A stretch of 64,000 bases of DNA. It comes from Candidatus Nitrospira allomarina. Lineage in GTDB: Bacteria > Nitrospirota > Nitrospiria > Nitrospirales > UBA8639. Below the pieces are notes generated by a model. The model ran no database searches, was not told the DNA's origin, and saw nothing but the letters and a program-made list of their open reading frames with translations. Both the position numbers and the translations under genes were made by a program. Positions 1,473-52,251 of this stretch are shown in pieces. The stretch lies in NCBI RefSeq assembly GCF_032050975.1, contig NZ_CP116967.1:2415001-2479000 (forward strand), in the 5' to 3' direction. The number at the start of each line of letters is the position of its first letter. Position 1 is the stretch's first letter.

Positions 1473-2450
1473 TTACTTATTTTGGGCAATTTTTTCCGTG
1501 GCTTGGGGAGCCACCGAAGGCATCAGAGCCAGATCCTTGGCTTCATCGCTTACTTCAAGAAGAGCAATGGCTCCCGTGAGCGCATCTTTCAGCGAGTGGG
1601 TTACGATCGGATAGACCCCTTTTTGTTCCACGACGACATCCAGAATCGCTCCATCCGCCGCGCCGATCACCTGGGTTTGGATCCCTTGCATGCGGTTGGC
1701 GGGGTTTCCGCTGGGCCAGACATCGTCCCAAATTTCTGCAATCGGATGAAGTGAGGAAAAATTATTCGGCCCGATGTTGACGAAGTAAAACCGTACTCGC
1801 TCCCCCGGCTTGGCGGTGAGGAACTCTCCTCCCTTTGCTGCATGGACGGGATCATACTTAAATATCCCGCCGTTGAAGACAACATGGTCATTTTTCGCGT
1901 CCATCATCGCCGCGACGTCATCAGGATCTTTGGTGAATAACTCCGATTGCACCAACACATATTCCCGGTCAGCCTTTGGCATCGCGCTGGCATCTTTGGG
2001 ATCCACAATGACAGCCCCGAACATGCCGCGGGCAATATGTTGAATCATGGGGAACGCGCCGCAGTGATAGGCAAAGACTCCAGGCCGTTTCGCTTCCCAA
2101 ACATATTCCAGAGATTCTCCAGGGTTGACGTCACGATAATTCGCGAGAAAATCCGTTTCCGCTGCATGAAAGTCCATGGAATGTGGGCGACTATTGTTTT
2201 CATGGTTTTTAAGGATGAAATGCACCTGGTCACCCTCGGTCACGCGGACGACGGGACCAGGAACCTGACCATTAAAGGTCCATGCTTTATAAGTGGTGCC
2301 TTTACCGTCAATAATGACTTCCGTTTCCACGGCGGTGAGTTCCACCTTCACCTTTTTAGCCTCGACTTGTGAGGCAAATGTGAAAAGACTTCCGGTCAGT
2401 GCTACTAGCGCAATTCCCAACCCTATCCGCCCTGAATGTTGATTCTTCAT
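1473..2450 (-). CDS. nirK: Copper-containing nitrite reductase (NO-forming)
   Basis: Two-domain multicopper oxidase of 325 residues that reduces nitrite to nitric oxide in the periplasm. A signal peptide (about residues 1-31) precedes the first cupredoxin domain. By comparison with the well-studied Alcaligenes enzyme every ligand is present: type 1 copper H90, C130, H138 and M143; type 2 copper H95, H129 and H285; and the proton-relay pair D93 and H235. The C-terminal tail after residue 300 is a low-complexity extension. The start is supported by GGATGGAAGA just upstream. The gene is transcribed divergently from a PAS-type sigma-54 activator, and the space between them holds a sigma-54 promoter reading toward nirK plus repeated operators, so sigma-54 control is likely. 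In nitrite oxidisers NirK is common but its role is debated. Confidence 0.92.
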   Translation of the reverse strand: MKNQHSGRIGLGIALVALTGSLFTFASQVEAKKVKVELTAVETEVIIDGKGTTYKAWTFNGQVPGPVVRVTEGDQVHFILKNHENNSRPHSMDFHAAETDFLANYRDVNPGESLEYVWEAKRPGVFAYHCGAFPMIQHIARGMFGAVIVDPKDASAMPKADREYVLVQSELFTKDPDDVAAMMDAKNDHVVFNGGIFKYDPVHAAKGGEFLTAKPGERVRFYFVNIGPNNFSSLHPIAEIWDDVWPSGNPANRMQGIQTQVIGAADGAILDVVVEQKGVYPIVTHSLKDALTGAIALLEVSDEAKDLALMPSVAPQATEKIAQNK

Positions 2451-29056: not shown

Positions 29057-30526
29057 TCATGGGGGTGTACCAGGATTTTGAGCACAGCGGAAACCAAGAC
29101 CTCCATCCGTGTGGGTTGGTAAAGCAGAAGAGCGCAATGCTGCTCTCAGATATTCGTCCTTGGCGTTCCATGCTCCACCTCGTATAACTTTTTGGGAACC
29201 CGCGACGGTCTCATTCGCATCCCGGTCTGGATTCCGCAATTCATCCCAGGTATCTGCCGTCCACTCACTCACATTTCCGGCCAAGTCATACACTCCATAG
29301 GGACTTCTATCCTTTTCGAATGTTCCGACCGGAGAAAGTTTTGACACGTCAAAGTCTCCAAATGTGGCGAAATTTGTGTATTGGCTCGTCGGTGGCTCAT
29401 TGCCCCATGGATACATGCGTCCGTCGGTTCCTCGTGCGCTTTTCTCCCATTCATCTTCGGTCGGTAATCGCTTCGTGGCCCAATGGCAGTAGGCTTTGGC
29501 CTCCGGCCATGTCACGCCGACGACTGGGCGATTGGCATCCCGGGACATATTGATATGATCCCAATATTCCGGGGATGTTCGACCGGTGACCTGTAGAAAT
29601 TTCCCATACCGTTCAATGGTGACTTCATTTTTGTCGATGAAGAATTCTTCCACATAGACGGTATATCGACTCCCTTCGGTAATGTCCCCGGTTCCTGAGC
29701 GTGATTCTAGATTCGTTTCAAACTGCCCTGCAGGGATCCGAACCATCGGCGCACCGTCTGCGCCTGAAATTTCTCGTGATAACGAGTCGCTCCCCGATGG
29801 TTCCACATGCCATCCTTTCAGTGCGATCGACAAAACCGGTGTGGAAACTGCATATCCCAGACGTCCCTGAGCATCTGTCACGACTCCGATCACTTTGCCA
29901 TTTAGCAGAAGGGGGCCACCCGAATGGCCTTCCTCCACTAATGCCTGAAACATCAGGTATGGCCCTTTACTCCCGCTGATATTTCCGGTTGAGACAGTCC
30001 AGGGAGCGAGATTAGGTGGAAATCCGATAAAGGTAATGGGTTCTCCCCCCGAAGCTTGTGTTGTCTGATCGAGCGGAAGCGCCACGAGTCCATCTGGAAG
30101 GGTATCGGAAACACGCAACGTGGCCAACCCGTTCTCATTGGTGCCATCGATGCCTAATACCTGTGAAGCAAACGATTGATGGGGAAGAGGAAAGAACCAC
30201 ACCTGTGGCTTGCTATCTCCGGAAATCACATGTGCGGCAGTCACGATGTAGGCGGCGTTCCTGTCGAGCTTCACGATAAATCCCGTTCCGACATTGGGTT
30301 GCCCATTTACGATCGCAGTAATTTTGACGACGCCCTTCTTGAACTCTTCAATCTCCGCGGCCTCCGCGACACAAACAACACCGGGAAAGAGCAGAAAGAA
30401 AGAGAGAGACATGATGCGGCCGATAAAAGGTACCCGTATCCATGAATGGCCCCGCACCCTATTGGAGGCTGTCGATGTTCGTTGGTTCTTGTTTGTTCTG
30501 ATGGTTGGGACAACCGTTGGGTTCAC
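29057..30526 (-). CDS. Trypsin-like domain fused to a SUMF1/FGE-like domain
   Basis: 489 residues from a GTG; a signal peptide begins at about residue 39 (MSLSFFLLFPGVVCVAEAA), so an ATG at 30412 may be the real start. Residues 60-245 form an HtrA/trypsin-like domain with His in YIVTAAHVIS and Ser in EEGHSGGPLL, but the expected Asp (D in DLAVL of HtrA) falls at Gly in NENGLATL. Residues 258-485 are a SUMF1/formylglycine-enzyme-like domain (MVRIPAGQFE, VTWPEAKAYCHWATKRLPTEDEWEKSARG, YPWGNE, DLAGNVSEWTAD, VIRGGAW). The FGE copper-binding cysteine pair is not apparent, so this is probably a lectin-like or binding module. Exported. Confidence 0.8.
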   Translation of the reverse strand: MNPTVVPTIRTNKNQRTSTASNRVRGHSWIRVPFIGRIMSLSFFLLFPGVVCVAEAAEIEEFKKGVVKITAIVNGQPNVGTGFIVKLDRNAAYIVTAAHVISGDSKPQVWFFPLPHQSFASQVLGIDGTNENGLATLRVSDTLPDGLVALPLDQTTQASGGEPITFIGFPPNLAPWTVSTGNISGSKGPYLMFQALVEEGHSGGPLLLNGKVIGVVTDAQGRLGYAVSTPVLSIALKGWHVEPSGSDSLSREISGADGAPMVRIPAGQFETNLESRSGTGDITEGSRYTVYVEEFFIDKNEVTIERYGKFLQVTGRTSPEYWDHINMSRDANRPVVGVTWPEAKAYCHWATKRLPTEDEWEKSARGTDGRMYPWGNEPPTSQYTNFATFGDFDVSKLSPVGTFEKDRSPYGVYDLAGNVSEWTADTWDELRNPDRDANETVAGSQKVIRGGAWNAKDEYLRAALRSSALPTHTDGGLGFRCAQNPGTPP

Positions 30527-43453: not shown

Positions 43454-44629
43454 TTAAGGATGAGTAGGTTGGGGATCCTCTGTTACGTCTGTTCCGGTTG
43501 GAGAACCTATCGAGGATTTGTTGGTGGGAAAGGGAATGCTGAAATGAAACGCCGTGCCCTGGTTGAGTGTGGATTCCACCCAAATAGAACCCCCATGGAT
43601 CTCTACGATTTTTTTACATAAGGCCAATCCGATTCCCGTCCCTTCGGCCGGTGTGCCGGTTTCTATTCGTTGGAAGAGGTTGAATATTTTTTCAATACCT
43701 TCAGGAGGAATGCCGATGCCATTGTCCTTGAAGGTAAATATCCATTCCGATTCTTTGGCCTCTGCGGATACCCGGATCATAAGCGGGCGATCGCTGTAAA
43801 ACTTGAGGGCATTCCCAATCAAATTTTGAAATAACTCCTGGAGAAAACATTTATGGCCGACGACTGTCGGGAGAGGGTGTTGCTCGATGGACGCACCGAT
43901 TTTAAGAATGTTAATTTCTAATTGAGAGAGAACCTCTTTGATGACCTTATTTAAATCCACGGAAGTAAATGAATTCCGTGCTCCTCCAACCAAGGAATAA
44001 TTGAGAAGATCTTGTATCAATTGTTTCATGTAGATGGCGCTTTTCATAGCGCGACTCAGGTAGTCCTTGGGGCGAGCTGGCAGTGGGTCGGAGAGTTCAC
44101 GTTGAAACAGTTCAAGAAATTTGATGATGCGTCTGACCGGCGCTTGGAGATCGTGAGCGGCGGTATAGGCAAACTGTTCCAGATCGCGCTGCGACCGTTC
44201 GATCTCTACGCGTTGTTTCTCGTTGGTTCGCAGAAGGCTTGATTTTTCAGTGGCGCGGGTGACGGCCCGGTACAAGCCTTCCGGCGTTATTTTGTTTTTC
44301 ACCAGATAGTCGCTGGCTCCGTTCTTCAATGCGTCAGAAGCGATTTCCTCATTACCCTGCCCGGTCAGCATGAGAACGGGTAAAAATCTGGGATCGTGAC
44401 TTTCGGCAAAAGATTCAAGAAATTCCAATCCATCAACGTCGGGGAGCTGATAGTCAACTAAAATGCAGTGGAATGTGTGATGGGTGCAGAGCTGCAATCC
44501 TTCTATGCCCGAATCGGCTTCCATGATATGGAATGCCGTTTGAGGATGATGAGAGAGGAGCCGGCTCAGGTACTCACGGTCCTCGGAACAATCGTCGACG
44601 ATCAACAAAGAGAGGGAATTGAAATTCAT
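43454..44629 (-). CDS. Receiver-histidine kinase hybrid
   Basis: 391 residues. An N-terminal receiver (about 5-125; DD pair, phospho-acceptor in CILVDYQLPDVDG, Thr in MLTGQG, Lys in LVKN) is followed by a HisKA domain with EQFAYTAAHDLQAPVRR (His near 160) and an HATPase domain (NLIGNALKFYSDRPL, DNGIGIPPEGIEKIFNLFQR, GTGIGLALCKKIVEIHGG). No membrane or sensor part, so it is a phosphorelay intermediate fed by another kinase. The start overlaps the upstream response regulator by four bases. Last gene of the minus-strand operon headed by the ethylene-receptor-like gene. Confidence 0.9.
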   Translation of the reverse strand: MNFNSLSLLIVDDCSEDREYLSRLLSHHPQTAFHIMEADSGIEGLQLCTHHTFHCILVDYQLPDVDGLEFLESFAESHDPRFLPVLMLTGQGNEEIASDALKNGASDYLVKNKITPEGLYRAVTRATEKSSLLRTNEKQRVEIERSQRDLEQFAYTAAHDLQAPVRRIIKFLELFQRELSDPLPARPKDYLSRAMKSAIYMKQLIQDLLNYSLVGGARNSFTSVDLNKVIKEVLSQLEINILKIGASIEQHPLPTVVGHKCFLQELFQNLIGNALKFYSDRPLMIRVSAEAKESEWIFTFKDNGIGIPPEGIEKIFNLFQRIETGTPAEGTGIGLALCKKIVEIHGGSIWVESTLNQGTAFHFSIPFPTNKSSIGSPTGTDVTEDPQPTHP

Positions 44630-45084
44630 ACTTCCTCTGTCACCTTTGGAATGATCACAACCTCAAACCAAAAATCTTTCAAACGAGTCATCGCTTGCAG
44701 AAATCCTTCGAAGTTGAGGGGTTTGGGAACGTAACTATTTGCCCCCATGGCATAACAATCCTGTATGTCCCTTTCATCCGCGGAGGTCGATAACACAATG
44801 ATCGGTATGAGTTTTAACTGAGGGTCTTGTTTGATTTCCTGGAGAACTTCACGTCCGTCTGTACCGGGCATATTGAGGTCCAGAAGAATGATGCCCGGAG
44901 GTAAGGATGTGTGTGGATCTTGATAAATGCCTCTCCGGTATAGGTAATCTAATGCTTCATCCCCGTCAGAACAACGCTGAATAGGATTTTTCAGTCCAGC
45001 GGCCCGCAAGCTCCGCGTGGCTACTTCATAATCCTCCGGACTGTCCTCCACAAGTAGAATGGGCTGATTGGGCGTATTGATCAT
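44626..45084 (-). CDS. Single-domain response regulator (Rcp1-like)
   Basis: 152 residues from the ATG at 45084, behind GGAGGGGGGAG. A lone receiver of the Rcp1 type: acidic pair in LLVEDSPEDYEVA, phospho-acceptor in GIILLDLNMPGTDGREVL, Thr in VLSTSAD, Lys in YVPKPLNF. It has no output domain, so it should shuttle phosphate or act by protein contact. Its first 59 bases overlap the 3' end of the large kinase gene and its last four overlap the receiver-kinase gene: tight coupling within the operon. Confidence 0.9.
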   Translation of the reverse strand: MINTPNQPILLVEDSPEDYEVATRSLRAAGLKNPIQRCSDGDEALDYLYRRGIYQDPHTSLPPGIILLDLNMPGTDGREVLQEIKQDPQLKLIPIIVLSTSADERDIQDCYAMGANSYVPKPLNFEGFLQAMTRLKDFWFEVVIIPKVTEEV

Positions 45085-47569
45085 GGCGACTCCCCCCTCC
45101 AAGAGTAAAATAAAATGTTGTGCCTTCTCCGACCGTCGATTCAATCCAAATATCTCCTCCATGCCGCTCGATTAACTTTTTCGTAATGGTTAATCCCACG
45201 CCGCTTCCGCCTCCATATTTATCTTGACTATGAAGACGCTTGAAAATACGAAATACGCTTTTGTAATGTTTGGCTCGTATCCCGATGCCGTTGTCCTTGA
45301 TGTAAAAGACTGGGATTCCCGGCTGAATCTGTCTTGAGTCCCATACGCGTTCCTCACTCTGTAGGTACCCAATCTCCACGTGTTTTTCCGGTTTATCATT
45401 GTATTTTATGGCATTTGTGATGAGATTCAGGAGGATCTCTCCTGTCCGAACAGCATCACAATTAATGGTGGGCAACGGTCTGGGTATATCGATGACCGCA
45501 TTCTCCTCTGTTAACAGCACGACCAAAGAATCCATTATGTCTTTGATCGTCGCGTCAAGATCCGTGTCACGCATGCCCATTTCCGTCCGGCCGGCGCGGG
45601 AGAAATACAACAGGGAATCCACTAAATTCTCCATTCTCATCGATAAACGTATCAACGTTTCACATTTATTCATCGCATCCTGATTGAAATCTTTGCCGTA
45701 ATCTTCAATCAGGATTTTGGCGAAATTATGGATCCCACGGATTGGCTCTTTCAGATCGTGCGAGGCGATATACGCGAATTGGTCAAGTTCTTCATTACTT
45801 CGAACCAATTCCTGGTTTCTTGCCGCGATGATGTGTTCAGCCTGTTTACGGTTGGTGATATCATTAAAAATGACGACTGCACCAGAAAGTTGATTATTTT
45901 CATTCCGAATCGGAGTACTAATATATTCCACGGGAAATGCTGTACCGTCTTTGCGCCACATTATTTCGTCTTCGACCCTCTGGACAGAACCGTTGCGTAA
46001 GGCAGCATGAATCAGACAGTCTTCAATGGGATAGGGAGATCCATCGGGTTTGCTGTGATGCACCGTCAGATGCATCGGTAAGCCGATCAGTTCTTCCGGC
46101 TGATATCCCAACATTCTGGCGCCGGCAGGATTAATAAACGTGCTTCGCCCTTCCCTGTCCACTTCATAGATCCCCTCACCGGCAGAATTCAAAATACGTT
46201 CACTCTGTTGTGAGAGCTGGTGATGCGCACGCCCGATTTGATAACGGTCAACGGCCATCGCAATTCGATCGCCTCCCAATTTAAGGGTATTGGCCGTCGA
46301 ATCGGGCACAGGCTCTTTGAAAAATACATCCATGACTCCCAACACGTCCTGGCCACGGAGCAGGGGATATCCCGCATAGGCCACTATTCCCTCTTGTGTA
46401 GCCCAGTCTTGATGGGGAAAACGGGGATTACCGATGACCGCAATGGTCAATTCGGGTTTTTTGCGATTTGCAATTCCCGCGGCATGAAATGGTCCGTCGG
46501 GGATACCCAAATGATGATTTTCAGGATGGTGAAAGTGTCCTGCGCTTGCCTGTAACTCGAGGATCTGCTGATTCGGACTGAATAACCATACGCGGGCAAA
46601 TGCAGCGTTTAGGTGGTCGCAAATTGCTTGAGTACATGCCTGAAGCATGGACTGAAGGTCTCCTCCCTGGATGATGATATGACTGAGCGCAGCATCGAAG
46701 GCCAGTAAGCGTGTCTGCTGGACTAACATGGCCTCGGAAAGTTTGCGTTCAGTGATATCGACCAGTGAAGCCAGGATATAAGTCACATCTCCACTTTTTA
46801 AAGGGTTCAGACCTATTTCCACAGGAAACTCGGAGCCGTCTTTGCGTCTGGCATACAGGTCCCGACCGGTTCCTATGGCCCGGGGATGGGGGTTTTTCAT
46901 AAACTCCCCTCGATGGGCCACATGGGTGTTTCGAAAGCGTTCCGGAAGTAAATGCTCAATGTGATTTCCGAGGATTTCGTCTTTTGTATAGCCAAAAAGA
47001 TTCACGATAATCTCATTAATCAATATAATTTGCCCCTGCTCATCAACCATAACCATGCCACTTGGAAAGGCATCAATAAAGAGATTCAAACGAGCTTGTT
47101 TTTCTTCCAATTGGAGTTTGACCCGTTCCATGTCATCGAGCAGGTTCAGCATGGCATCATTCTGTTGTTTTAACTCCACTGTCTGCGTCTCAAATTGCTT
47201 TTCCAGATCATCCTTTAATGATCGAAGCTTTTGGCTTGAGGAGAGATTTCTTAAAACCATGAACCCGGTAACCCACACGCCCAAAATAGATAGTAACCGG
47301 TTTACCAGGGCGTAATTCTCCTCAAGACCGGGAGGAGATGTCCAAAACCCCGCAATAATTAAGACGGTCGACACCCATATGGAGCCCATAGTAAAAAGCT
47401 TATGGTGGCTCGGTAAGGTAGCCAGCACGACCAGAACGTAGAGCACACCCTCGGCAATTCCCAGATGCGTCATTGAATCCAAACAGAAGAAAGCGAAAGC
47501 CATTAGGGCGATAAACACTATTTGAAGATTGAGATTTAGTAAAAGAGACGTATGTTTAATGACATTCAT
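45026..47569 (-). CDS. Large membrane PAS-GAF-PAS sensor histidine kinase
   Basis: 847 residues. Five hydrophobic segments (about 12-105) are followed by a coiled helix, a PAS domain (about 145-260), a GAF domain (about 280-425), a second PAS domain (about 440-560), a HisKA domain with the phospho-acceptor in FAYIASHDLKEPIRGIHNFA (His near 603) and an HATPase domain (GEILLNLITNAIKYND, DNGIGI, GSGVGLTITKKLIERHGG). It begins 45 bases downstream of the ethylene-receptor-like gene, which lacks a kinase, so the two may form a sensor-kinase pair. The 3' end overlaps the next regulator gene by 59 bases. Confidence 0.9.
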   Translation of the reverse strand: MNVIKHTSLLLNLNLQIVFIALMAFAFFCLDSMTHLGIAEGVLYVLVVLATLPSHHKLFTMGSIWVSTVLIIAGFWTSPPGLEENYALVNRLLSILGVWVTGFMVLRNLSSSQKLRSLKDDLEKQFETQTVELKQQNDAMLNLLDDMERVKLQLEEKQARLNLFIDAFPSGMVMVDEQGQIILINEIIVNLFGYTKDEILGNHIEHLLPERFRNTHVAHRGEFMKNPHPRAIGTGRDLYARRKDGSEFPVEIGLNPLKSGDVTYILASLVDITERKLSEAMLVQQTRLLAFDAALSHIIIQGGDLQSMLQACTQAICDHLNAAFARVWLFSPNQQILELQASAGHFHHPENHHLGIPDGPFHAAGIANRKKPELTIAVIGNPRFPHQDWATQEGIVAYAGYPLLRGQDVLGVMDVFFKEPVPDSTANTLKLGGDRIAMAVDRYQIGRAHHQLSQQSERILNSAGEGIYEVDREGRSTFINPAGARMLGYQPEELIGLPMHLTVHHSKPDGSPYPIEDCLIHAALRNGSVQRVEDEIMWRKDGTAFPVEYISTPIRNENNQLSGAVVIFNDITNRKQAEHIIAARNQELVRSNEELDQFAYIASHDLKEPIRGIHNFAKILIEDYGKDFNQDAMNKCETLIRLSMRMENLVDSLLYFSRAGRTEMGMRDTDLDATIKDIMDSLVVLLTEENAVIDIPRPLPTINCDAVRTGEILLNLITNAIKYNDKPEKHVEIGYLQSEERVWDSRQIQPGIPVFYIKDNGIGIRAKHYKSVFRIFKRLHSQDKYGGGSGVGLTITKKLIERHGGDIWIESTVGEGTTFYFTLGGGSRHDQYAQSAHSTCGGQSGGL

Positions 47570-47614: not shown

Positions 47615-48220
47615 TTAGGTCAATAAAGAAATGTTGGGATAGGGTTGCGGCTGGTGTGTGGCGAGTGAAAGCCTGTTGATTTCCTTTTTCAGTTCAAGCA
47701 TACGAAGTTCTTGATCGCACAAATGCAGGTTAAGTCGGCGCAATTGATTGTTGGCTTTCTGAAGGTGTTCGCTTTGAGATCGGGTGACAGCTTCGATGGT
47801 TTTATGTGTCTGGATTTCCTTTTTCATTAAAAGATTGGATTCTTGTAAAAGAAACGAATTTGGCAGTTTGCTCGCCTTATAAACCAGTGGCCATAAAGCA
47901 ATCGCCGTAATTACCGAAATGACGGCAGTAAAAAGTTTGCCTAATCCTTCCGGATAATAATCGGGTTTCCATATGGTCCATATGTTGAACATATGTGTCA
48001 TGCCACAGGCTAAGATGAACGCACAAAACAAAAAGATAATAGGTTTGAAGGGCAATTTCCCTCCTATCTTTGTGAAATACCAGAGTGCCAGGGGAATTGA
48101 ACAATAGGAAAGCGCAATGAGACTGTCTGAAATGACATGTAACCACAACAGCGAGGAATCCCAAAGAAAACACATCCCATGCGGCATAAAATTGTTCAAC
48201 GGTTCAAGAAATGGCGACAT
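47615..48220 (-). CDS. Ethylene-receptor-like (ETR1-type) copper sensor protein
   Basis: 201 residues from the ATG at 48220, eight bases after GGAGGG; a longer frame from 48439 exists but the N-terminus MSPFLEPLNNFMPHGMCFLW is the one expected for the family. Three membrane helices (about 25-45, 60-80, 97-115) carry D32, Y39, I42, P43, I69, C72 and H76. I recall ETR1 D25, Y32, I35, P36, I62, C65 and H69 as needed for copper-dependent ethylene binding; every one is matched with a constant offset of seven. A coiled coil (about 125-185) follows, but no GAF, kinase or receiver domain. The output is probably the kinase encoded 45 bases downstream. Ethylene binding is a family inference and has not been shown. 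Confidence 0.85.
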   Translation of the reverse strand: MSPFLEPLNNFMPHGMCFLWDSSLLWLHVISDSLIALSYCSIPLALWYFTKIGGKLPFKPIIFLFCAFILACGMTHMFNIWTIWKPDYYPEGLGKLFTAVISVITAIALWPLVYKASKLPNSFLLQESNLLMKKEIQTHKTIEAVTRSQSEHLQKANNQLRRLNLHLCDQELRMLELKKEINRLSLATHQPQPYPNISLLT

Positions 48221-48716: not shown

Positions 48717-48848
48717 GTCATGGTTGTGTCACAGTCTGACGGGAGCCGGGTATGAGTACAGGAAACGATGGTGCGTTCCGCTCACGGATGATCAGAAAAG
48801 CGCCCGTTCCCTCAGAATGGATAACATCGCGAAGGAGGATAGTTGTCA

Positions 48849-49307
48849 ATGGTAAAACATTCGGTCCCTGGGGTAATTTTGATCGCTGAAGACAACATCG
48901 ACGATTGTGTCATCGCCTGTCGAGCGTGGGAGGAAAGTGGAATAAAGTGTGATATTCGACTGGTTCACAATGGTAGAGAGGTGTTGGATTTCCTGTACCG
49001 TCGCCGAAAATTTCGGAATCTCCAGATCACTCAGAATCCTGATTTGATCATCCTGGATTTGAATATGCCTCGGATGGATGGACGACAGGTCCTTCTGGAA
49101 CTGCGTGCAGATCACCGCTTATGCAGTATTCCCGTCGTCGTGTTTTCCGATTCCAAGATGCCGAAGGATATGGCCGAGTCCGAAACGATTGGAGCCCTTG
49201 AATATATTTCCAAACCGGAAAGTTTTTCCGAATATGTGGAGATCCTAAAACATTTAGGCCAATTTATTTTGAAAAACCCCGGGAGACTGGTCTATGCGGG
49301 CTGTTGA
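48849..49307 (+). CDS. Single-domain response regulator (Rcp1-like)
   Basis: 152 residues from the ATG at 48849, behind AAGGAGG; a TTG two codons upstream is an alternative. Receiver landmarks: EDNIDD acidic cluster, phospho-acceptor in DLIILDLNMPRMDGRQVL, Ser in VVFSDS, Lys in YISKPESF. No output domain. First gene after the c-di-GMP riboswitch and terminator, so expression should depend on c-di-GMP. Its stop overlaps the next gene by 14 bases. Similar in sequence style to the 44626-45084 regulator on the divergent operon. Confidence 0.9.
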   Translation: MVKHSVPGVILIAEDNIDDCVIACRAWEESGIKCDIRLVHNGREVLDFLYRRRKFRNLQITQNPDLIILDLNMPRMDGRQVLLELRADHRLCSIPVVVFSDSKMPKDMAESETIGALEYISKPESFSEYVEILKHLGQFILKNPGRLVYAGC

Positions 49308-50469
49308 GGGTGTCCAGGGGGATGTTCCTCTTAAAATTCTGCTGGTGGAGGATGATGAGGATGATGCCATTATCACGCGCAGTCTTCTGCAATTTAGCTC
49401 CGGCCCTCCTCTCATAGTGGATTGGGCTCCATCGTATGAGGCCGGGTGCGCCTCCCTCGAACAGCAACAGCATCATATCGGGTTGATCGATTACAACCTC
49501 GGATTGAAAAACGGGATTGATTTAGTCAAAGAAATACAGGCAAAAGGCTGCCATATGCCGATCATTATGCTGACAGGCCAAGGGAATGAATCGCTGGTGG
49601 TCGAGGCAATTAAGTCCGGTGCCATAGACTATATCCCTAAACATATTCTTTCAACCGAAAATCTAGAACGGGCTATTTGTCACGGATTGGAAAATTCCAA
49701 ACTGACCAATGAATTGAAATTAAGGCAGAGCCAGCTTGAACTATCCAATAGGGAACTCGAAAAGAGAAATGCCGAGATCCGGCGGTTTTATCATCTATTA
49801 GCTCATGAGTTGAAAACACCGCTCACGGCTGCATGGGAATTCGTCAATATTCTTCTAGAACAGATTCCCGGATCCTTGAATACATCTCAAAATGAATATC
49901 TCACCGTCATCCAGGAATGTTGCGCCCATTTAGATCGCAATATTAATGATCTTTATGATATTACGCGTCTAGAGACGGGAAAGTTACGGATACATATTCA
50001 GCCGTGCATCCTGGAGCCGATAATTACCGATGTCGTAACCTGTCTCGGTCCAAAGGCGAAATCTAAAAATATCCGGTTGTCCGCTCATTTCGATTCCTCT
50101 CTTTCCACTGTGAAGATAGATTCACAGCGAATTAAACAAGTATTACTCAATTTAGTCGGCAATGCTCTGAAGTTTACTCCCACGGGAGGAGAGGTGACTG
50201 TGACAGCTTCTGCGGATCGCCGTTGTCCTGAGAGAGTCCGGGTGGCTGTCCAGGACAACGGAATCGGTATTCCCAAAGATCAGCTCGAAAATATCTTTGA
50301 TCGATTATTTCAAATACAAGATGATATCGCCTCCTGTTCCCCGGGACTAGGTCTTGGGTTATTTATCTGTCGGGAAATCATCAAGTTACACGGAGGTACC
50401 ATGGTGGCAAGCAGTATTCCGGGTCGAGGGAGTGTCTTCAGTTTTACGCTCCAATGTGAACGGAAATGA
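49294..50469 (+). CDS. Receiver-histidine kinase hybrid
   Basis: 391 residues. Receiver (about 10-130; VEDDEDDA, phospho-acceptor in IGLIDYNLGLKNG, Thr in MLTGQG, Lys in IPKH), then HisKA with RRFYHLLAHELKTPLTAAWEF (His near 171) and HATPase (LLNLVGNALKFTPTGGEV, DNGIGIPKDQLENIFDRLF, GLGLGLFICREIIKLHGG). No membrane segment. Same domain order and same length as the 43454-44629 protein, so the divergent operons probably share an ancestor. Translationally coupled to the preceding regulator by a 14-base overlap. Confidence 0.9.
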   Translation: MRAVEGVQGDVPLKILLVEDDEDDAIITRSLLQFSSGPPLIVDWAPSYEAGCASLEQQQHHIGLIDYNLGLKNGIDLVKEIQAKGCHMPIIMLTGQGNESLVVEAIKSGAIDYIPKHILSTENLERAICHGLENSKLTNELKLRQSQLELSNRELEKRNAEIRRFYHLLAHELKTPLTAAWEFVNILLEQIPGSLNTSQNEYLTVIQECCAHLDRNINDLYDITRLETGKLRIHIQPCILEPIITDVVTCLGPKAKSKNIRLSAHFDSSLSTVKIDSQRIKQVLLNLVGNALKFTPTGGEVTVTASADRRCPERVRVAVQDNGIGIPKDQLENIFDRLFQIQDDIASCSPGLGLGLFICREIIKLHGGTMVASSIPGRGSVFSFTLQCERK

Positions 50470-50500
50470 TCGATTAACAACCCGAGGGAGGTAGGCAAAG

Positions 50501-50890
50501 GTGGAACAGACGGTGTTAATTATTGAGGATGATGAAAGTATTTCGAAAGCCCTGGAAGTCCGTTTACAGTCCAGAGGCTTCAGGGTGACCATCGCTTTCG
50601 ATGCAATTATGGGTATGCAGAAGGCGGCAGAACTTCTGCCTCAGGCGATTCTGCTCGATATTACCCTGCCGGGAGGAAACGGGTTATCTCTTGCTGAGCG
50701 GTTAAAAAACTCCGATCGAACCCAGAAGATCCCCATCATTTTTTTAACGGCGAGTAAACAGGCCGACTTACGACGATCAGCGATTGCAGTGGGAGGTGCG
50801 GCACTTTTTGAAAAGCCGTATGACTTTGAATATTTACTAGCAGCCTTGCGCGCCGTGATTCAACATCCGACCGTGCGGTTAGCAATATAG
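50501..50890 (+). CDS. Single-domain response regulator
   Basis: 129 residues from a GTG behind GGGAGGTAGGC. Receiver landmarks: IIEDDESISKAL, phospho-acceptor in QAILLDITLPGGNGLSLAERL, Thr in IFLTAS, Lys in FEKPYDF. CheY/OmpR-like lone receiver. Third gene of the riboswitch-controlled operon; 31 bases separate it from the preceding hybrid kinase and 29 from the next gene. Confidence 0.88.
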   Translation: MEQTVLIIEDDESISKALEVRLQSRGFRVTIAFDAIMGMQKAAELLPQAILLDITLPGGNGLSLAERLKNSDRTQKIPIIFLTASKQADLRRSAIAVGGAALFEKPYDFEYLLAALRAVIQHPTVRLAI

Positions 50891-50919
50891 ACTTCTAAAG
50901 GCGGGGACTATAGATTGCG

Positions 50920-52251
50920 ATGATGGCACTTCCGAGCGTGACGAATAAGCAAATTCGCGCATATGACGTTGACGACCATCACGTTGATGCATCGGTGCGG
51001 GTGTTGCTTGTCGATGACAATGAAGATGATGCCGTTATTGCGCAAGCGATGTTGGCAAGCCTGCAGGGAATGAATTTTGCCGTTGATTGGACATATTCAT
51101 TTGATGCAGGACTGAATAGATTAAAGCAAAACGAACATGACATTTGTCTGTTGGACTTTTGTTTAGGCCAACGCAGTGGCTTGGATTTGCTTCAGGAGGC
51201 TCTTCGATACGGGTGCCGTATCCCCATTGTGATGTTGACAGGCACCACTGATCGACAAATCGATTTGAAAGCCATTCAATCGGGTGCGGCGGATTACCTG
51301 GTCAAGGGCGAAACTAATCCGGGAATTCTCGAACGGGTGATTCGACATGCCAGAGAGCGGAAACGGGCGGAAGAAGAACGGGAGCATCTGACACAGCAAT
51401 TGATCGAGCGCTCCCGTCTGGCGGGGATGGGTGAGGTGGCGGCCAATGTTCTGCATAACGTAGGAAATTTATTGAATAGTCTCAATGTTTCCGCAATGCT
51501 GGTGGGCGATCAGCTGCATCATCTTCCCTTTCAGGATATCCAACGCGTGGCCCGCCTTCTGGAAAATCATTCTGATGACCTGGAGACCTTTATTCGTCAG
51601 GATGCCAAGGGACAACGTGTACCGGCATTTCTCCATCAGCTGGGAACTCATTTGAATGAGGGCTTGGAAACGGCCCAGAAGGAAATAAATAAGGTGGTAA
51701 CCCTCGTCGCTGCCTTAAAACAGATCATTGCCACCCAGCAGGAGATGGCTGCAACCACTGATGTTTTGCAGCCCGCCCTTCCGAAAGATCTTTTGGAGTG
51801 TGCCCTTTTGATCAATAAATCCGGATTTGAGAAACATCACATTGAGGTCGTAAGAGAATTTGGCGAACTTCCGCAAATAGTGGTGGATAGATATCAGGTC
51901 TTGCAAATTCTGACGGTTCTCATCCGCAATGCCATGGGTTCCATGAGCCACATCCCTTTCGGATCACGCCGGTTAACCTTGAAACTGAATCATCATCCTC
52001 TAGAGGAAGGATGGATCCAGATTCAGGTGGTAGATACGGGGAAAGGCTTGAATCCCGAAAGTTTCACCCGCATTTTTTCTCAGGAGGAAACTGACAAGAA
52101 AACCAGTTCAGGATTGGGACTTCATGGTAGTGCGCTTTTCGCCAAAAACCTGGGTGGGACGCTCTCGGTATGGAGTAAAGGAGAGGGTTACGGATCAACC
52201 TTTACGCTAGCCCTCCCGGGACAGCCGGCAAAAAAGCCTTTTCATGTTTGA
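50920..52251 (+). CDS. Receiver-kinase with LHNVGN-type H-box
   Basis: 443 residues. Receiver (about 24-150; DDNEDDAV, phospho-acceptor in DICLLDFCLGQRSGLD, Thr in MLTGTTD, Lys in LVKGE), a coiled linker, then RLAGMGEVAANVLHNVGNLLNSLNVSAMLV, the variant H-box of a kinase subgroup in which the acceptor His follows VL, and a HATPase domain (ILTVLIRNAMGSM, DTGKGLNPESFTRIFSQ, GLGLHGSALFAKNLGGTL). The variant H-box is known in family members that act with dedicated partners. Last gene of the riboswitch operon. Confidence 0.88.
   Translation: MMALPSVTNKQIRAYDVDDHHVDASVRVLLVDDNEDDAVIAQAMLASLQGMNFAVDWTYSFDAGLNRLKQNEHDICLLDFCLGQRSGLDLLQEALRYGCRIPIVMLTGTTDRQIDLKAIQSGAADYLVKGETNPGILERVIRHARERKRAEEEREHLTQQLIERSRLAGMGEVAANVLHNVGNLLNSLNVSAMLVGDQLHHLPFQDIQRVARLLENHSDDLETFIRQDAKGQRVPAFLHQLGTHLNEGLETAQKEINKVVTLVAALKQIIATQQEMAATTDVLQPALPKDLLECALLINKSGFEKHHIEVVREFGELPQIVVDRYQVLQILTVLIRNAMGSMSHIPFGSRRLTLKLNHHPLEEGWIQIQVVDTGKGLNPESFTRIFSQEETDKKTSSGLGLHGSALFAKNLGGTLSVWSKGEGYGSTFTLALPGQPAKKPFHV

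Follow-up and report, generated by a model that had tools for sequence, protein, structure and literature searches.

Can an ethylene-type sensor that has no output domain work as a receptor through a separate histidine kinase? This question is raised by a small gene in the window, i.e., the whole stretch of 64,000 nucleotides of Candidatus Nitrospira allomarina DNA that was analysed.

Sensor gene and ethylene-type domain

The sensor features are listed with their basis.

47615-48220, minus strand: ethylene-binding-domain protein of 201 aa, encoded on its own and without an output domain (ORF, PF25487 match, AzoEtr1 identity)
47867-48157, minus strand: three predicted transmembrane helices, residues 22-52, 59-84, and 88-118 (AlphaFold2 model, alignments)
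47639-47764, minus strand: conserved tail at the C-terminus, residues 153-194, reading LCDQELRMLELKKEINRL...PY in this protein, where the long helix 122-187 ends (alignments, AlphaFold2)

The sensor ORF (48220-47615, minus strand) starts with ATG, and GGAGGG was found 8 bases upstream. In Pfam search, ETR1_N (PF25487) was the sole family in the 201 residues and was placed at residues 24-118 (E=6.7e-36, 122.9 bits vs a cut-off of 27). The remaining residues 119-201 (83 aa) matched no Pfam or NCBIfam family, i.e., no kinase, GAF or PAS output was recognized there. No second ETR1_N copy was detected elsewhere in the same genome (4.55 Mb, one contig).

AzoEtr1 of Azospirillum brasilense was located through tblastn of plasmid records and showed 46% identity to the sensor over 135 residues with zero gaps. 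The first 130 residues of AzoEtr1 bind ethylene (PMC11819568). The sensor residues D32, Y39, I42, P43, I69, C72, and H76 were aligned to AzoEtr1 D35, Y42, I45, P46, I72, C75, and H79, and K95 was aligned to K98, which corresponds to ETR1 K91. In an alignment of 20 sequences, D32, Y39, P43, C72, and H76 showed no variation and I42 almost none.

The AlphaFold2 model of the sensor places D32, Y39, I42, and P43 on helix 1, I69, C72, and H76 on helix 2, and K95 on helix 3. One long helix of 66 residues (122-187) follows the membrane helices. The pLDDT was about 90-96 at residues 131-180, and block means were about 70-80 in the transmembrane helices; the model was built with 16 sequences, and its membrane part has only middling confidence. 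No solved structure matched the sensor by sequence search, Foldseek of the model against PDB gave no hit below E=0.001, and no solved ETR1 membrane domain was found in the structure searches.

The sensor is very likely an ETR1-type ethylene-binding domain. It can probably bind ethylene, a judgement that rests on homology with no binding data. Homology alone speaks for ethylene as the natural ligand, and this was considered slightly more doubtful than probable.

Kinase operon beside the sensor

The downstream genes form one operon with the following features.

45026-47569, minus strand: partner histidine kinase, 847 aa, with four-helix membrane domain, coiled coil, PAS-GAF-PAS, HisKA, and HATPase_c (Pfam, N-terminal model, relatives)
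47132-47155, minus strand: partner motif of the kinase, AMLNLLDD at residues 139-146 with Asn142, within the coiled coil that follows the membrane domain (alignments)
44626-45162, minus strand: single-domain response regulator, as the listed ORF, true start likely near 45084 (PF00072, E=5e-19)
43454-44629, minus strand: receiver-HisKA-HATPase hybrid kinase, with which the operon ends (Pfam)

The kinase starts 45 bases downstream of the sensor gene. Its N-terminal model gave four helices, the fourth of which continues as a coiled coil to residue 159. Because of the two models, sensor and kinase were both predicted as membrane proteins that exit the membrane as long helices. The two-component criterion, i.e., a histidine kinase and a response regulator in the same operon, was met by the HisKA, HATPase_c, and Response_reg domains. 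Neither the Pfam families nor 25 NCBIfam matches included the periplasmic copper sensor domain of CusS/CopS kinases.

A divergent phosphorelay operon is located about 620 bases from the sensor (48843-52251, plus strand). It is composed of a response regulator, two receiver-kinases, and a receiver, and cross-talk is possible. Elsewhere in the window, the protein at 29057-30526 carries both a trypsin-like peptidase domain and a formylglycine-generating-enzyme (FGE-sulfatase) domain.

An earlier note, made from the sequence alone, had described a 201-residue ORF carrying an ETR1-type three-helix domain, with no kinase domain in the polypeptide and with seven ethylene-site residues matching ETR1 at a constant offset of seven. 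These claims held, i.e., the first by ORF, Pfam ETR1_N, and AlphaFold2 helices, the second by Pfam and NCBIfam, and all seven residues by the gap-free AzoEtr1 alignment. The offset is right because AzoEtr1 D35, C75, and H79 were equated with ETR1 D25, C65, and H69, as was K98 with K91 (PMC11819568). The note would have been refuted by an alignment in which the D, C, and H positions fail to superpose; this was not the case, and D32, C72, and H76 all align. The order of a PAS-GAF-PAS histidine kinase 45 bases downstream, a response regulator, and a receiver-kinase also held, and the sensor as leading gene of a phosphorelay operon fits. The coiled coil at the sensor end, called short, failed on length, and the four-helix membrane domain of the kinase was absent from the description.

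Conservation of the gene pair

In 7/49 genomes of the family, ETR1_N was found, always in a stand-alone-sized frame (211-279 aa). Other genomes of the order and class also have it, and elsewhere in the phylum it was mostly in a kinase-sized frame. A kinase-type protein, called by a related N-terminus or a kinase core, was the next same-strand gene in 9/9 stand-alone sensors (the window and L043-L050). In L043 and L046 the partner gene was cut off or short, and in L049 the kinase N-terminus was shorter under the start choice used; gene starts were taken from a simple ORF picker. The spacing between sensor and kinase ranged from a 32-base overlap (chosen start) to 162 bases. The window and its eight relatives fulfil the criterion of a sensor-kinase pair, i.e., a separate membrane sensor gene kept beside a membrane kinase gene. 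As these sequences are related, they do not represent independent events. It is likely that the sensor is partnered with the kinase at 45026-47569.

The split could be a frameshift or stop artefact of a fused receptor, or the sensor could be a decaying remnant. In favour of this, the two frames of the window are in phase, with two TAA codons and 45 bases between them. However, the eight relatives have a separate gene with differing spacings and frames, the conserved tail ends just before the stop, start and site are intact, and the kinase has its own membrane domain. Since spacing and frame differ from relative to relative, a frameshift artefact at the window locus was rejected; the split is therefore not one shared sequencing error. 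This explanation is practically ruled out.

One further locus, L051:8703-10315 (G190), was rejected as a stand-alone sensor. Its ethylene-type domain is joined to a HisKA_3 start and the rest of the kinase is in another frame, and it is likely a fused HisKA_3 receptor interrupted by a frameshift.

Sensor tail and kinase coil motif

The tail consensus in the stand-alone ethylene-type sensors is GRExRMxELKxEIN, for which no Pfam model was found. In the sensor tail alignment, L13, N17, L20, N24, E31, L37, K38, N42, L44, and Y54 were invariant. The aligned partner kinases share a coil motif, AxLNLLED.

A profile of the tail only matched 42/198 genomes of the phylum. Tail counts were made on 32 fetched loci from tail-bearing genomes and the nine ethylene-type loci. 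The tail lies 12 or fewer residues from the C-terminus in 46/46 tail proteins. The 37 non-ethylene tail proteins carry PAS (34), GAF (11), receiver (5), and solute-binding (3) domains, and also MASE3, PocR, CHASE, and cache; no kinase, ATPase or HD domain was present among their 25 commonest families.

The motif AxLN(L/M)(L/M)ED was found in one of the next two same-strand genes of 29/46 tail proteins (9/9 ethylene-type, 20/37 others) and was missing there in the other 17. It was present in 27/63 downstream genes vs 1/274 other genes of the same loci (Fisher p=2e-21). Without the ethylene-type loci, these counts were 18/47 vs 1/153 (p=4e-12), and among kinase-like proteins only, 14/20 downstream vs 1/21 elsewhere. 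The motif-bearing partners (n=25) include HisKA in 16, HATPase_c in 15, and HD domains of the HD-GYP kind in six. The pattern was first seen in the ethylene-type partners and then adjusted on reading other loci, i.e., partly on the same data.

In the reverse test, a motif profile searched in 118 genomes of the phylum gave 22 matches in 19 genomes, and 19/19 of these genomes were also tail-positive. A tail match lay upstream on the same strand within about 4 kb in 15 of the 22, and the other seven, from six genomes of one family and G072, had no tail within about 4 kb. Several of the 22 matches are training sequences; six tail-adjacent ones are outside both the training set and the earlier partner count (G160:C72, G064:C10, G147:C52, G073:C76, G071:C21, and G080:C1:40192).

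Some loci are worth recording separately. In L104, L114, L118, L119, L121, and L122, tail-bearing PAS sensors are followed by a partner with the motif xDAFLNMLED. This partner is in several cases an HD-domain protein (HD-GYP-like), and the wiring may possibly feed c-di-GMP enzymes too. The tail also ends PAS-type proteins in other bacteria, i.e., an Armatimonadetes bin (L009) and an uncultured bacterium (L010), the latter with a convergent neighbouring kinase bearing IMNILED.

Sensor-less paralogues

Thirteen kinases of the family have the full membrane domain and coil, seven beside a sensor and six without. The seven paired kinases retain Asn in the pattern x-N-L-L-x-D. No ethylene-type domain was found alongside the six sensor-less kinases within the fetched flanks, and their coils read TMSVLLED, TMGILLEN, TMTVLLED or TMADILED, with Leu-Asn altered in 6/6. 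In a membrane-domain tree with the motif excluded, the six nest inside the paired kinases with support 99/96. Because they form one clade, the losses count as about one event. Loss of the sensor thus coincided with loss of the motif core, probably once.

One of these operons is in the same genome (L123:6191-11321, about 4,270,190-4,275,320). From near 4,270,190 it shows the identical gene order of kinase, regulator, and receiver-kinase, and its coil reads TMSVLLED where the partner kinase has AMLNLLDD. This sensor-less kinase presumably works alone.

The sensor might instead be a mere neighbour. Its tail would then serve homodimerisation or another partner, and the kinase would sense through its own membrane domain, PAS and GAF. 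The existence of sensor-less paralogous operons and the seven of 22 motif matches without a nearby tail, six in one family, favour this explanation. However, the gene pair is kept in 9/9, the tail-motif association remains outside the ethylene-type loci, and the motif is altered where the sensor is missing. This explanation was considered unlikely.

The earlier note had proposed that the ethylene-type input is detached and that its kinase is a second protein. The comparison of relatives supports this beyond mere adjacency, because the next gene is of kinase type in all nine pairs, tail and motif travel together, and Leu-Asn is lost without the sensor.

Proposed mechanism and ligand

The domain identity, the kept site residues, the kept gene pair, the tail and motif co-occurrence, and their joint loss were shown by computation. 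The favoured reading, by a modest margin and with neither binding nor interaction data behind it, is an ethylene-type copper receptor made of two proteins, in which the sensor docks on the separate kinase by its tail. That tail and motif mediate the docking is inferred from indirect evidence, i.e., co-occurrence and joint loss, and was considered fairly likely.

In this reading, Cu(I) would be held by C72 and H76 in the three-helix ETR1-type site, with D32 positioning H76. Ligand binding would shift helix 3 and the 66-residue output helix that follows. The sensor tail would pair with the kinase coiled coil around AMLNLLDD, possibly in a four-helix bundle to which sensor and kinase contribute two helices each. 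This pairing may set or switch autokinase activity, the direction of control being inferred, and phosphate would pass to the downstream response regulator and receiver-kinase, as inferred from operon order. Against this reading, the kinase has its own membrane domain and PAS and GAF inputs, and it is possible that it acts alone.

Copper in the site is inferred, with no copper or binding data. It is possible that the two-protein receptor is right and the copper site reports copper itself, CO, NO, acetylene or another small ligand. The ETR1 site needs copper, no ethylene source was seen, and a multicopper oxidase gene is in the window (1473-2450). However, all seven ethylene-site residues are kept, and the 46%-identical AzoEtr1 binds ethylene. 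No copper-handling gene was identified beside the operon, and the multicopper oxidase is about 45 kb away. Ammonia monooxygenase acts on ethylene; a search for it gave no match, and the control genomes likewise gave none. That the protein senses copper, as the title of the earlier note has it, was not shown; copper would serve the ethylene-type site as its cofactor. For the alternative of another ligand suiting a copper nitrite reductase, no specific support was found, the distant multicopper oxidase being the only one seen.

Comparison with known systems

AzoEtr1 (PMC11819568) resembles the window sensor in its gap-free domain, the same site residues, and an operon with a single-domain response regulator. 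However, AzoEtr1 carries PAS and histidine kinase in a single polypeptide of 525 aa and lacks the tail, whereas sensor and kinase are separate in the window. SynEtr1 of Synechocystis and plant ETR1 have the three-helix ETR1_N with the D, Y, I, P, I, C, and H residues but are fused receptors with GAF and kinase domains. The window sensor does not meet the criterion of a canonical ethylene-receptor histidine kinase, i.e., output in the same polypeptide. Neither tail nor motif was found in the fused ethylene-type receptors examined.

Stand-alone proteins of Maricaulis (L002-L008) share the layout, in that a gene for an ethylene-type domain of about 118-127 aa immediately precedes one for a histidine kinase. 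However, they have no tail and no AxLNLLED motif and form a clade of their own, and their split from the kinase is likely independent of that in the window.

In UhpC/UhpB pairs, the membrane sensor has no kinase domain and controls a membrane histidine kinase that is a separate product of the same operon. The sensor fold is unrelated to that of the window, and UhpC/UhpB-type pairs are not known to have such a tail and coil motif. Accessory-protein systems such as QseG-QseE have been described (PMC12691602). The open-access literature searched described neither the tail nor any stand-alone ethylene-binding protein that has its kinase as a second polypeptide; this is a weak absence, as most subscription papers were outside the search.

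Possible meaning of the proposed detached receptor

The tail GRExRMxELKxEIN and the coil AxLN(L/M)(L/M)ED may be two halves of an undescribed docking code, a reading that could as well be wrong as right. In this code, output-less sensors (PAS, GAF, MASE3, PocR, solute-binding, and ethylene-type) would connect to partners encoded separately, either histidine kinases or HD-domain (HD-GYP-like) proteins, a proposal for and against which the evidence weighs equally. The ethylene-type sensor of the window would then be one input flavour of a plug-in system, which is no more certain than the code itself.

If the receptor reading is true, bacterial ethylene-type sensing extends beyond fused receptor kinases, and a detached receptor with a separate kinase would be a small system for studying ETR1-site signalling. 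Plant receptors signal through the separate kinase CTR1, which is Raf-like and not two-component. The window pair would be a parallel to plants, where the receptor likewise acts via a separate kinase. If the tail and coil motif are true partners, they would be a sequence rule that wires orphan sensors to kinases, a long-standing problem of two-component systems, and this wiring rule would be testable with short coiled-coil peptides.
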